Shown here: positions 11,131 through 21,462 of the stretch, piece after piece
Position numbering within the stretch: the first letter of the stretch is position 1
Layout of the letters: each line of letters opens with the position of its first letter
Origin: Ignavibacteria bacterium
GTDB taxonomy: Bacteria; Bacteroidota; Ignavibacteria; Tepidaquicellales; OLB5
Direction: 5' to 3'
Assembly: GCA_020852705.1 (NCBI GenBank)
Contig: JADZAP010000007.1
Span: forward strand, 1-64,000
DNA: 64,000 bases
Notes under the pieces: generated by a model
What the model was told of the DNA's origin: nothing
The model's input: only the letters and a program-made list of their open reading frames with translations
Databases searched by the model: none
Position numbers and translations under genes: made by a program

Positions 11131-12885
11131 TTGCAAAACGCACAGAAAATATTAACCCTATCAGGAAAATCGATACATGATACTGTTTTCACAGTTTTTG
11201 ATGTTGAAACAACCGGCTTAAGTGCAGAGCGCTGCCGAATGACTGAAATTGGAATTGTAAAGCTGCGGGGCGGAGAAATTATTGATGAATTTGAAACACT
11301 TATAAATCCAGGTGAATTCATTCCTCCGGGCATTACACAGCTAACAGGTATAACAAATGAAATGGTTTATGGAAAGCCAAAGTTTGGTGAGTTAGCACAG
11401 AATGTTCTTGGATTTATATTTTCGGATGATTTACCTGTTGTGCTTGGCGGACATAACGTAAGGTTTGATTACAGTTTCCTTAATTCATCTCTTCAACGTG
11501 AAGGGTATAATAAGATTTCAGTACCTGCTTTGTGTACCGCAAGACTTGCCCGCAGACTGAATAAAAAGCTGCCATCCAAATCATTAGATTCACTGAAAAG
11601 ATATTTTGGGATTTACTCCCGCCGTAAACACCGTGCAATGGATGATGCCAAAGCTGCCGCCCATATTCTTTCTCACTTTATTGAAATGCTTGTAAACGAG
11701 TATGAATATGAAACGATTGATGATATTTTAAGCTTTCAGTACCGGAAAATTTATGATGATACAAAAACCAGTACAAGATTTAAAAATATTAAGATAGATC
11801 TTAAATCTGTTCCAAAGTCACCCGGTATATATTATATGTATAACAGAAAGGGTGAAATAATATATATAGGTAAGGCAAAAAATCTTAAAGAGCGTCTTGG
11901 TTCGTACTTTTATCATAACACCTCTCACTCAAGCAAAGTTAGAAAACTTATAAGGTATGTATATAAGGTAGAGTGGGAAACAACAGGTTCAGAGCTTTCT
12001 GCACTATTGGCTGAAAGCCGTATGATAAAAACTCATAAACCCAGATTTAATTCTGCAATTAAATCTTACCGTAAATTTCCCTTCATCAAGATAGATATTC
12101 AGCGGTCATATCCAAGAATTCAGAAGGTGTATGAAATAATTCCCGATGGGGCAAAATATTACGGACCTTTTGCAAGCAGTTTTACTGTAAATACACTAAT
12201 TGAAAAAATTAATAAACTTTATAAGCTTCGTAAATGTGATGATATTAATCTGAAACCTTCAAAGAAACACAGCACTTGCATGTATTATGAAATTGGACAA
12301 TGCGGTGCACCGTGCAATTATACGATTAGCCAAAATGAATACCGAAAGGAAGTAAATCAGGTAGATAAATTCCTGATTTCTGACACAAATGAAGGTGCTT
12401 TAAAATACCTTGAGAGCGAAATGAATAATGCAGCAGAAGAAATGAATTTTGAAAATGCATCATATTTAAGGGATAATATTACTGACTTAAAAAAAGTGAT
12501 GTTAAATATTGAGCTTACAAACTCAATAGTTGAACTGCAGAACTACATAATCAAATGCCGCAATGAATCAGATGAAAATGTATATGAAATATTTCTTATG
12601 GTGAACGGCAAAACTGCTAAAACTTTTTTAATGAACAGCGAAATTAAAAATGATACTCAAACAATGGAAAATATTAAAGAAGAAATTAACTGCCTGTATT
12701 TTTCAGGTACTTTGTTCAGAGATTATGTTTTTAGTAAGGCGTATCACAAATTTAAGATTGATGAAATTGATACATTAAAAATAATTTCAAACTGGGTTTA
12801 CCGGAATTATAAACCCTCAAGAATAATGAAAATGACAGTCAAAACAAAGTTAGAAGATGTAATGAAGTTTTTGATAAAAAAGTGA
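11131..12885 (+). CDS. DnaQ-type exonuclease fused to UvrC-like GIY-YIG nuclease
   Basis: A 584-residue fusion. Residues 18-195 form a DEDDh 3'-5' exonuclease of the DNA polymerase III epsilon type with all motifs: FDVETT (D24, E26), HNVRFD (about 108-113) and HRAMDDA (about 168-174). Residues 228-320 are a GIY-YIG nuclease (SPGIYYMYNRKGEIIYIGKA), followed by the UvrC-like CMYYEIGQCGAPC cysteine cluster (about 386-398) and a UVR-like helical hairpin (about 424-452). It lacks the UvrC RNase H and HhH parts, so it resembles E. coli Cho with an added proofreading-type nuclease. The start is TTG (11131). It stands alone, and uvrC itself is at 1-699. Confidence 0.9.
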   Translation: MQNAQKILTLSGKSIHDTVFTVFDVETTGLSAERCRMTEIGIVKLRGGEIIDEFETLINPGEFIPPGITQLTGITNEMVYGKPKFGELAQNVLGFIFSDDLPVVLGGHNVRFDYSFLNSSLQREGYNKISVPALCTARLARRLNKKLPSKSLDSLKRYFGIYSRRKHRAMDDAKAAAHILSHFIEMLVNEYEYETIDDILSFQYRKIYDDTKTSTRFKNIKIDLKSVPKSPGIYYMYNRKGEIIYIGKAKNLKERLGSYFYHNTSHSSKVRKLIRYVYKVEWETTGSELSALLAESRMIKTHKPRFNSAIKSYRKFPFIKIDIQRSYPRIQKVYEIIPDGAKYYGPFASSFTVNTLIEKINKLYKLRKCDDINLKPSKKHSTCMYYEIGQCGAPCNYTISQNEYRKEVNQVDKFLISDTNEGALKYLESEMNNAAEEMNFENASYLRDNITDLKKVMLNIELTNSIVELQNYIIKCRNESDENVYEIFLMVNGKTAKTFLMNSEIKNDTQTMENIKEEINCLYFSGTLFRDYVFSKAYHKFKIDEIDTLKIISNWVYRNYKPSRIMKMTVKTKLEDVMKFLIKK

Positions 12886-17584: not shown

Positions 17585-18649
17585 ATGTATAATATATTTA
17601 CAATTTTAGCCGTTCTATTTATAGTTACCTGTGCAATAAATTCACAAAACAAAAATACAGTTGAAAAAGGCGGAAAAATTTGGGGCTATGTTTTTGGTGA
17701 TTACTTTTTTAAAACGTCGGGAGATTCAAGCGGAAGCTCTGTACAATATGCAGGCTATCAAAATTCTTTCCAAGGGTTTGAAATTAGACGGGCTTACCTT
17801 GGATATGATTACACATTTAGCAGTAAACTATCTTCGCAAATTTTACTTGAAGGCAACGATAAAATTTTAACAAACACCCGCCTTGGACTATTTATTAAAA
17901 CTGCTTTTGTTGAATGGAAGGCATTTGAAAATGTCAGTTTCGCTATCGGATTGCTGCCAACACCTTCATGGAGTAGAGCATTAAACGAAAGAGCATGGAA
18001 CTACCGCTCAATTGAAAAAACCATTTTAGATATGCGCAGTCTAGGCAACGGAAGCGATCTAGGTGTTTCTGCTCGAGGAAAATTTGATAAAGCGGGGAAT
18101 TATGGTTTTGCTTTAATGATTGGGAATGGTAGCGGTCAAAAACCAGAAATTAATAAGTTTAAAAAATATTATGGTTCTATTTTTGCAAAACCAATAAAAG
18201 AGCTTCAAATAGAGTTATATGGTGATTTCGAACCTAATACTGGGGATAAAAACAAATTAACATTAAAAGGCTTTGCAGGTTATAAATTTGATAAATTCAA
18301 TTTTGGTATAGAAGTAATTCAGCAAGTTCAGAAGAATGCAGGAGGAAAAAATATTGACGCAATACCGTTTGGTATCAGCACGTGGATTTGGGGAAATCTT
18401 TTAGGCAAAGCAGATAATCTAATTCTAAATGCATTTGGAAGATATGATATGTATAACCCTGATGTAAAAAATGACTCAACCGGATATATAGAAAATTTTA
18501 TTTCTGTTGGATTAGATTATATGCCAATTGAAAATATTCATTTTATGCCGAATGTTTGGATTAATAAATATTCAGTTAAAAGTTCATTATTTTCTAAACG
18601 TAAAACTGATGTAGTTGGCAGAATGACATTTTATTTCATATTTAATTAA
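17585..18649 (+). CDS. Outer membrane porin-like beta-barrel protein
   Basis: 354 residues with a signal peptide (about 1-20, cleavage near NSQ) and then alternating amphipathic strands through the whole chain (KIWGYVFGDYFF, FEIRRAYLGYDYTFSSKLSSQ, FAIGLLPTPSWSR, ISVGLDYMPIENIHFMPNVW), ending with the aromatic C-terminal strand VVGRMTFYFIFN expected for outer membrane assembly. The EIRRAYLGYDYTF segment resembles OprO/OprP-like porins. The substrate is not evident. Confidence 0.8.
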   Translation: MYNIFTILAVLFIVTCAINSQNKNTVEKGGKIWGYVFGDYFFKTSGDSSGSSVQYAGYQNSFQGFEIRRAYLGYDYTFSSKLSSQILLEGNDKILTNTRLGLFIKTAFVEWKAFENVSFAIGLLPTPSWSRALNERAWNYRSIEKTILDMRSLGNGSDLGVSARGKFDKAGNYGFALMIGNGSGQKPEINKFKKYYGSIFAKPIKELQIELYGDFEPNTGDKNKLTLKGFAGYKFDKFNFGIEVIQQVQKNAGGKNIDAIPFGISTWIWGNLLGKADNLILNAFGRYDMYNPDVKNDSTGYIENFISVGLDYMPIENIHFMPNVWINKYSVKSSLFSKRKTDVVGRMTFYFIFN

Positions 18650-18697: not shown

Positions 18698-18731
18698 AAA
18701 AAAGGGACAACCTATATTCAGACTATCCCCT
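18698..18731 (-). terminator. Weak intrinsic terminator after NfrB-like gene
   Basis: On the minus strand AGGGG pairs with TCCCT (one G-T pair) around a long loop and is followed by TTTTTATTT. It lies 26 bases past the stop of the glycosyltransferase gene. The stem is short, so confidence is limited. Confidence 0.4.
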
Positions 18732-18756: not shown

Positions 18757-20091
18757 TTAATAATGTTCAGTTGATTCCCAAACAACCTTATTTTTCATAT
18801 TCATAAATACTTTTAATGCTCTGAATGTAGCAAAAAAGTTTATTAAGTTATCAAAGTTAAGTCTAATAAGACTGAAGAAAGCATACTTTAACCCGTACCA
18901 GCTGTAAGTGAAAATGAATCTATGAAGCAGCCGCCATACCATAAAAAAGAAGCATGCCCATAAGAAAAACCAAAGTGCAGTGTTTTGTTCAACTGCAGAT
19001 TCAAATACTCTTATCCCTAATCCAAACCCAAGCAGGTAGAGTAAAAAGAATGCGAACACAAGATTGCTTAATAGCACCATAAAGTTACTGAAAATGGTTT
19101 TTCTATCACGCATAAGGAAATATTTTGTCCATAAATTACCTGCCCATTTGTGCATTTTCCAGTTTTGGAAACATATTCCTGCAGTCCATCTTGAACGCTG
19201 TTTAACAGCAGCCCAAAATGTATTTGGAAAATATTCACCAGTTGCAACCCTTGAGTTAGGATTATTTTTATCTAATAGAAGATTTATGTAAGCTGTTTTA
19301 TAGCCCATCTTAAAGAGTCTTAACCCTAACTCATAATCTTCCGTAAGATTTGCTTCATTAAATACCTGCGGAAAGTGGCTGTCAAGGTTCATAAAGATCT
19401 CTCTGCGGAAGCTCATTCCGGTTCCTGCAAAGGGAATGAAAACTTTTAATGCCTGTCTAACAATAAGGTCCTTTGAATGTACTTCTGCAAATGCATCGCA
19501 ATAGGTTCTGTGTATAAATTTACCGCGATCATCTTTAATAGGTACTACAGGAATTTGCACTGCATCAATACCCTGATGCATTATCAGATAGTTATCTATT
19601 TTTAGAGTTAATGGATGAATAAAATCTTCACTATCATGAATTGAAATAACATCAAAATTCTTACCATTATCTTTTTCAAACCGTTTAATTGATTCATATA
19701 CATTATTAAGGTTATCAGCTTTTGTTGTAGGACCATCATGTGAATTAACACAGATAACAACTTTATTGTTTTTCTGAGCAATGCGTTTAACAACTTCAAG
19801 GGTTTTAGTATCATTAGGATAAACACCTACAAAAATTGTAAAATTGCTGTAACGCATTTTACTTAAAGCATAAGTTAAGGTTCTTCCAATTACTTTATAC
19901 TCGCGCCATGCACATATTACAAGTGCAATGCTGTTTTCACCCGCAGAAAGAACATCATCCATTTTTGGCAAGCTTCTGTAATATTTCCATCGGTTGAACC
20001 AGTACAGCAGGTCAACCAAAACATCATCAATTCCGCTGATAACCAGCAGTATTGAACAAATCCAAAGTAATACTGTAAAAACTTCTTGCAT
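18757..20091 (-). CDS. NfrB-like membrane glycosyltransferase (GT2)
   Basis: A processive family-2 glycosyltransferase closely patterned on NfrB, the E. coli N4-adsorption protein that builds a ManNAc-containing surface polysaccharide. One membrane helix (4-28) precedes the catalytic domain with VGVYPND, GPTTKADNLNNV, SIHDSEDF (about 148-155), LTEDYELGLRLFKMGY (TED at about 250) and QRSRW (about 299-303). Membrane helices follow at about 335-360, 370-390 and 395-420, ending VVWESTEHY. E. coli NfrB continues for about 300 residues with a c-di-GMP-binding MshEN region. This one stops exactly before it, so control must differ. It pairs with the barrel protein gene just upstream (64-base gap). 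Confidence 0.88.
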   Translation of the reverse strand: MQEVFTVLLWICSILLVISGIDDVLVDLLYWFNRWKYYRSLPKMDDVLSAGENSIALVICAWREYKVIGRTLTYALSKMRYSNFTIFVGVYPNDTKTLEVVKRIAQKNNKVVICVNSHDGPTTKADNLNNVYESIKRFEKDNGKNFDVISIHDSEDFIHPLTLKIDNYLIMHQGIDAVQIPVVPIKDDRGKFIHRTYCDAFAEVHSKDLIVRQALKVFIPFAGTGMSFRREIFMNLDSHFPQVFNEANLTEDYELGLRLFKMGYKTAYINLLLDKNNPNSRVATGEYFPNTFWAAVKQRSRWTAGICFQNWKMHKWAGNLWTKYFLMRDRKTIFSNFMVLLSNLVFAFFLLYLLGFGLGIRVFESAVEQNTALWFFLWACFFFMVWRLLHRFIFTYSWYGLKYAFFSLIRLNFDNLINFFATFRALKVFMNMKNKVVWESTEHY

Positions 20092-20154
20092 ATAGTTTAA
20101 TTTAATTTCTGCAAATTACAAAATGAAAATCAAAAACTAACATATTAATACATT

Positions 20155-21462
20155 TTAAAATGCTGCCTTATAGTTAAATACAAAACCAGCTTTTAACTGA
20201 AATGAATTCTTTGAATCACCAAAAAAATACACTTTATAAGTCGGTTCAATAAAAATTACAGGAAATACCATTAAATTTGGTTTAAACCTAATACCGGTAC
20301 CAATTTCAAAATAATTATTGTAACCAAGCTTTCTGCCATCAAACTGCCCTGATTCAAATATGTAGTTTTCTACATAAGAGTATCCGCCTGTATGAAAGCG
20401 AAGTACCTGCTGAAGCATTCCCTGCAGAAAAGCATTTTTGTATTTATAGTCATACATAGCAGCATAATAAATATCAAAGTAAAAACTAGTTTTTGATGAT
20501 GATTTGCTTTCTACATAAACTTTAGCATTGCCAAATCTGTTAAAATAAACAAGCATAGGTTTAAAGTTTATTTTGTTTGAATCTAAATCAATTTGTCTAG
20601 TATATCCAATTCTTCCTTCAAAGAAAAGGTTACGCATAATATAATATCTTAAAAACAGTCCTGCTTCAACAAACCTGTCATTGTATATCAAGTTTTTACT
20701 TGAGCGTGAATCGGTATAAACATCAAGATACGGACCTGCATAAAATCCGGGACCAATTCTGAAATTAACATGGCCTACCAGGTTTGCTATATAATTTTCC
20801 TGGTGAGTATCATAAAAATTATGAAAATAAATTTCTACTGACTTTTTAGATGTTCCGGCTAATTCATCTCTTAAAACCAAAGATGCTGATTTAGACTGTT
20901 CTTTTAACTTGAGGTTTGAAGTATGACTGCCAACATAATCAAAATGTTTAAGTGAACTTGAGTATTTTTTCTGATCATAATAAATGTAGGCAAGCTGCAT
21001 TCTGGCATTGTCATCAGAAGGTTTATCTTTAAGATGCAGTTCAAACATTTGAGCTGCCTTAGTTTTGTTTCCGTTTTTATAGTAATAGTAACCTGAATCT
21101 GCGTAATTTCCGCCTGTGGAGTAAACCTGCTGGTTATTATTTACAGCAGTAATGCCATCTATATTCTGTACCATTTGTTTAGCCATCTGAACTTCATTTT
21201 CATTGGTTGAATTTTTGCTGACATAATCAAACTGCTCTCTTGCCTTAGATGTTTGTTTAATATCATAATACAGATAGCCAAGATCAAGCCTTACCTGGTA
21301 ATTTGAAGGATTTTGAATAATAAATTCTTCAAAAAAACCGGCAGCTTTTTCTTTTAAACCAATTTTTTGATAATAATACCCGGAATCTGCGAGATTTTGT
21401 GAATGACTGACAGAAGTGTATATAATTGCCAGAAAAAGAATCGGGAGTAGTCTTTTTAACAT
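20155..21462 (-). CDS. TPR plus outer-membrane barrel protein, NfrA-like
   Basis: 435 residues: signal peptide (1-20), two long homologous helical repeats (about 25-85 and 120-180, each starting ADSGYYY and ending HFDYV or QFDYV) of TPR type, then from about residue 205 a set of amphipathic strands (VEIYFHNFYDT, GHVNFRIGPGFYAGPYLDVY, GAGFVFNY-like last strand) forming an outer membrane barrel. TPR-plus-barrel layout next to NfrB matches NfrA, the outer membrane exporter and N4 receptor of that pathway, though this protein is much shorter than E. coli NfrA. Direct similarity is weak, and context carries the assignment. Confidence 0.7.
   Translation of the reverse strand: MLKRLLPILFLAIIYTSVSHSQNLADSGYYYQKIGLKEKAAGFFEEFIIQNPSNYQVRLDLGYLYYDIKQTSKAREQFDYVSKNSTNENEVQMAKQMVQNIDGITAVNNNQQVYSTGGNYADSGYYYYKNGNKTKAAQMFELHLKDKPSDDNARMQLAYIYYDQKKYSSSLKHFDYVGSHTSNLKLKEQSKSASLVLRDELAGTSKKSVEIYFHNFYDTHQENYIANLVGHVNFRIGPGFYAGPYLDVYTDSRSSKNLIYNDRFVEAGLFLRYYIMRNLFFEGRIGYTRQIDLDSNKINFKPMLVYFNRFGNAKVYVESKSSSKTSFYFDIYYAAMYDYKYKNAFLQGMLQQVLRFHTGGYSYVENYIFESGQFDGRKLGYNNYFEIGTGIRFKPNLMVFPVIFIEPTYKVYFFGDSKNSFQLKAGFVFNYKAAF

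Follow-up and report, generated by a model that had tools for sequence, protein, structure and literature searches.

The closest described counterpart of the gene pair treated here is NfrB/NfrA of Escherichia coli (nfrBA-ybcH, the N4 glycan receptor system), in which a membrane GT2 glycosyltransferase (GT) stands beside a TPR-barrel partner and a UDP-GlcNAc 2-epimerase is genetically linked, as it is to homologues of E. coli NfrB. Residues D169, D267 and W330 of NfrB were mutated and proven essential, c-di-GMP is bound by L490 and G491, the tested MshEN residues beginning at 490, and E. coli genetics indicated UDP-ManNAc as substrate (PMC8669469). The MshEN domain is carried by 1,705 of 1,841 NfrB homologues, which leaves 136 outside that majority (PMC8669469). 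For NfrA a barrel of 16 strands was modelled, which is itself a prediction (PMC8669472). PgaC/PgaA and BcsA/BcsC follow the same logic of a processive GT2 plus a TPR-barrel exporter, but belong to other sequence families, and c-di-GMP enters there via PilZ or PgaC/PgaD.

The window analyzed in the present study, i.e., the whole stretch of 64,000 nucleotides from the start of contig JADZAP010000007.1 (Ignavibacteria bacterium, assembly GCA_020852705.1), belongs to a genome of 2.94 Mb with a completeness of 97.6%. An earlier note on this DNA had claimed an NfrA/NfrB-like pair lacking the c-di-GMP domain and lying outside the Proteobacteria, and such a pair was found in this member of the Ignavibacteria (Table 1). 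Both ORFs are encoded on the minus strand with 63 bp between them and are transcribed in the order barrel, then GT. The pair differs from E. coli NfrB/NfrA in having the barrel gene first in the operon, as well as in the absence of a YbcH neighbour and of MshEN.

Table 1. Features of the NfrB/NfrA-like locus in the window (minus strand) and unsplit synthases of the sister family.
Feature	Position	Strand	Remarks
NfrB-family membrane GT2 synthase	18757..20091	(-)	444 aa, intact, no MshEN domain
HDSED motif, residues 152-156	19624..19638	(-)	D153 aligned to E. coli NfrB D169
Loop, residues 240-250	19342..19374	(-)	Break point of the sister family's two-gene GT
TED motif, residues 250-252	19336..19344	(-)	D252 aligned to E. 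coli D267 (catalytic base)
QRSRW motif, residues 298-302	19186..19200	(-)	W302 aligned to E. coli W330 (acceptor site)
NfrA-like TPR plus outer-membrane barrel protein	20155..21462	(-)	435 aa; barrel predicted
Signal-peptide-like N-terminus, residues 1-21	21400..21462	(-)	Sequence MLKRLLPILFLAIIYTSVSHSQ
TPR region, residues 23-204	20851..21396	(-)	One module in two tandem copies
Predicted 12-strand beta-barrel, residues 207-434	20161..20844	(-)	Structure model
Terminator-like hairpin just past GT stop	18702..18731	(-)	Relatives mostly have wecB downstream
Unsplit 485-aa sister-family GT	L043 8211-9668; L044 7982-9439		

Among the NCBIfam models only those of NfrB-type glycosyltransferases scored high on the 444-aa GT, which they match over its whole length (E 1e-96 to 3e-118). 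Best were the full-length matches to the MshEN-less NfrB-like GTs of PRK14716 (NF011305, NF011307), which carry no c-di-GMP domain either; NF011305 has a cut-off of 409 bits, which the GT with its 396 bits narrowly misses, placing it just outside this curated equivalog, while NF012033 reached 347 and NfrB itself 325 bits. To E. coli NfrB the identity is 37% across 97% of the length (tblastn), the homology being full-length with the C-terminal membrane helices included and the membrane layout the same. HDSED, LTEDYE and QRSRW are in register with E. coli NfrB, and all three residues essential there are kept (alignment A3). The AF2 model (pLDDT 82.5), with shallow input alignments of 15-25 rows, is closest in fold to hyaluronan synthase and BcsA, so that processive polymerisation, with translocation via the enzyme's own helices, would be the expected mechanism. 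Weak matches of 40 residues to AVR-Pik (PDB, Pfam) stayed below the cut-off and were put down to chance. Judged by its sequence, the gene encodes an intact NfrB-family GT2, presumably processive.

Regarding its control, the last residue of the GT aligns with NfrB residue 476 (alignment A3) and the ORF stops there, with no in-frame MshEN following; the length of 444 aa is shared by all 15 genomes of the window's family, in agreement with the earlier observation that the enzyme ends where MshEN begins. No MshEN was detected in the 15 genomes of this family, and in the order it was present in seven of 43 genomes, within frames of 636-696 aa that going by size are type II/IV ATPase-like. A search for GGDEF detected the domain in E. 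coli and in seven further controls but not in any of the order's 43 genomes; c-di-GMP control of the window pair is therefore very unlikely, the different control suggested beforehand is borne out, and the loss of MshEN fits lost c-di-GMP signalling. By these predictions the GT is a c-di-GMP-independent NfrB-like glycosyltransferase and not a 'c-di-GMP-activated NfrB'. The lack of MshEN, real as it is in the window GT, is in itself not new, since MshEN-less NfrB homologues are already known, as the 136 mentioned above and several NCBIfam models of 442-502 aa demonstrate. A phylum-wide search yielded two other genomes with MshEN-less GTs of 468-473 aa and barrel partners of 394-404 aa. An NfrB-like GT without MshEN was also seen in a record labelled Patescibacteria, which is possibly misbinned (L102 5574-6974).

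The partner had been described as a compact TPR-plus-barrel exporter, and its predicted architecture corresponds to this: Pfam TPR_19 matches with 3e-8, the TPR module shows a self-repeat score of 157 vs a shuffled mean of 30, and the model (pLDDT 84.8) contains 12 barrel strands behind the signal-peptide-like start. Taken from protein lengths, the number of TPR modules varies from one in several relatives and two in the window to three in many sister-family proteins; three motif copies were seen directly in two of the latter. Since Pfam NfrA_C (PF13283), present in E. coli NfrA, was not found in the window partner, homology to NfrA was shown via an intermediate, the barrel protein adjoining a Legionella NfrB-like GT (24% identity along 417 aa that take in the barrel, E 1e-14), in which NfrA_C is absent too; furthermore, the family profile aligns with E. 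coli NfrA across TPR and barrel (hhalign, probability 85, E 6e-6). Fold matches include BcsC, among the top ones, and the 12-strand NanC, and a PDB sequence search with the barrel protein returned TPR matches only. With 435 aa and 12 predicted strands, compared with 990 aa and 16 modelled strands in E. coli NfrA, the partner is NfrA-like by descent but smaller, and the lower strand number makes export of a polymer through the barrel less certain.

Both genes co-occur without exception within the order: 31 of the 43 genomes possess both, 12 neither, and none only one of them, for which the chance is 6.5e-11 if genomes are independent, a P-value that ignores shared ancestry. Neither outcome that the earlier note had named as refuting it, a barrel unlike NfrA or genes not occurring together elsewhere, was thus observed, and its account of anatomy and homology holds. 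TsaD and, inside the window's family, MgtE flank the locus where the contigs of relatives reach that far. A WecB-type UDP-GlcNAc 2-epimerase is situated directly downstream of the GT in 10 out of the 13 family relatives that have loci, beside the GT in many sister-family loci and beside proteobacterial relatives; in the window genome the orthologue (56-60% identity) is found on another contig (L033 1462-2640) and not in the operon. This linkage, shared with E. coli NfrB homologues, makes UDP-ManNAc the likeliest, though not a proven, substrate. As most relatives have wecB for a third component, calling the pair a 'minimal' machine is doubtful. The terminator-like hairpin behind the GT is weak, given two such sites found against 1.2 expected by chance. 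At the position of the relatives' wecB the window holds a porin-like gene without Pfam match on the opposite strand (17585-18649). Elsewhere in the window a 584-aa ORF (11131-12885) appears by eye to combine a DnaQ-type exonuclease with a UvrC-like GIY-YIG domain as a fusion. In many sister-family loci the gene after the operon encodes an S15/CocE-like hydrolase that is secreted and bears a Por secretion (type IX) tail (L035 10946-12979 and equivalents), possibly a glycan or ester modifier.

In this sister family, which belongs to the same order, matches to the GT lie in two places that correspond to two adjacent genes (L034 6716-9862, L035 6885-9766, L038 8272-11629, L040 7025-10297, plus others). 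The N-half ends at about residue 240 and the C-half begins at about residue 243, covering abutting positions of the NfrB model (about 4-240 and 249-470). In every undamaged pair one of the chains bears HDxED and KADNLN and its partner TED and QxxRW; the cut thus separates the catalytic motifs DxD and TED, running through the active site, and maps to the loop between helices 230-239 and 251-261 of the window model. Most N-halves have gained a further transmembrane helix, many also a SPOR-like tail (2e-8 for the best match, weak elsewhere), and in several lineages the C-halves start with DUF772 (4e-9; IS5/IS1182 transposase-like), followed by an acidic linker. Apart from this, DUF772 is seldom seen in these genomes, where one real transposase was found, and capture of transposase sequence at fission is therefore plausible. 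Alg13/Alg14-type enzymes, which are GT-B, likewise carry one GT activity on two polypeptides; they are divided between two natural domains, whereas the break in the sister family lies inside a single GT-A domain, with DxD on one side and the catalytic base on the other. A GT2 enzyme split in this way was not found in the literature, which is weak evidence as subscription journals were mostly outside coverage.

The split forms constitute one clade with a support of 92/91, below 95, and the tree needs one change, which points to a single origin. Two sister-family genomes keep an unsplit GT of 485 aa (Table 1), in which an insert of 41 aa lies exactly at the split point; for the unsplit GTs of L084 and L095 both tree placements are compatible with the data, and the insert may represent either a pre-split stage or a re-fusion. 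The whole-protein alignment with both halves (A4) consisted mostly of gaps and was left out of the analysis. Some second copies of the split GT, in several genomes, have no neighbouring barrel gene; one of them (L036 1407-9683) has genes for two GH130 mannoside phosphorylases and for a GT4 next to it.

Could the division be an artefact, caused by sequencing error, pseudogenization, an intein or a programmed frameshift? All records are metagenome-assembled genomes and the copies in G035 are truly damaged with broken frames, yet the split recurs in about 15 genomes of eight genera, where contigs reach 1.17 Mb, each half possesses its own stop or start and its own extension of 30-720 aa, and Pfam found no intein domain, which renders an artefact highly improbable. 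Also unlikely is that the halves no longer form one enzyme and were each recruited to a separate function, as might be read from the new domains on both and from extensions that differ strongly between copies. This is opposed by the 16 complete pairs of adjoining N-half and C-half genes in named records, which always keep the same order and direction with gaps of 6-60 bp (15 undamaged pairs), and by the retention of every catalytic motif on its proper half. Both GT halves are strongly conserved, with low and similar dN (0.02-0.09 at saturated dS), the extensions changing about 4-12 times faster, and the split form is as near to the window GT (49-62% identity) as the unsplit sister-family form (52-57%).

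As to the product, the window pair may make another glycan, mannose- or GlcNAc-based for instance, the wecB linkage then reflecting merely a shared sugar pool. The GH130 and GT4 neighbours of split second copies would suit this idea, as would the nearness of the GT fold to hyaluronan and cellulose synthases; the recurrence of wecB-type epimerases beside the GT in both families and in proteobacterial relatives, together with the E. coli genetics favouring UDP-ManNAc (PMC8669469), speaks against it, and we regard it as the lesser possibility, albeit one to be reckoned with. That the product acts as a phage receptor, like NGR for N4 in E. coli, was raised as a possibility in the earlier note and is an analogy drawn from NfrA/NfrB homology; the receptor role in E. 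coli is incidental to glycan making, and the proposal seems improbable for the window pair.

The reading favoured here, to which we assign a probability of about 0.78, is that the window pair represents a c-di-GMP-free synthase-exporter of the NfrB/NfrA type and that the synthase of the sister family underwent fission once, its two chains forming one active site. The GT2 would take up a cytoplasmic UDP-sugar, probably UDP-ManNAc supplied by the WecB-type epimerase, and form from it a polymer that passes through the enzyme's own membrane helices, whereupon the NfrA-like TPR scaffold and the 12-strand barrel would carry it over the outer membrane, the system working without c-di-GMP control. In the sister family one fission in an exposed loop would have separated a donor-site half (HDxED) from a catalytic-base and acceptor half (TED, QxxRW), and both chains would have to join for one active site, i.e., a two-chain GT-A polymerase assembled in trans. 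The helix and SPOR-like tail gained by one chain, and the putatively transposase-derived DUF772 and acidic linker gained by the other, may control assembly or location. We lean, with modest confidence, towards the more specific proposal that the sister lineage harbours a naturally split GT-A polysaccharide synthase, with donor-site and catalytic-base/acceptor halves as separate proteins derived from a single fission that captured transposase sequence, and that the switch is no longer c-di-GMP but the assembly of the halves via the SPOR-like and DUF772/acidic modules.

Glycans of the NfrB type are new surface polymers, so far described chiefly in Proteobacteria, and the Ignavibacteria are now shown to possess a compact, c-di-GMP-free version of NfrBA, whose conserved core is the pair together with a WecB-type epimerase. 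More surprising is the sister family's synthase encoded by two genes. If true, it would be a two-chain GT-A polymerase in which two proteins share one active site, and hence a natural tool to study how processive synthases are assembled and switched and to what extent they tolerate being cut, while the split point itself would provide split-enzyme control with a designed break point.
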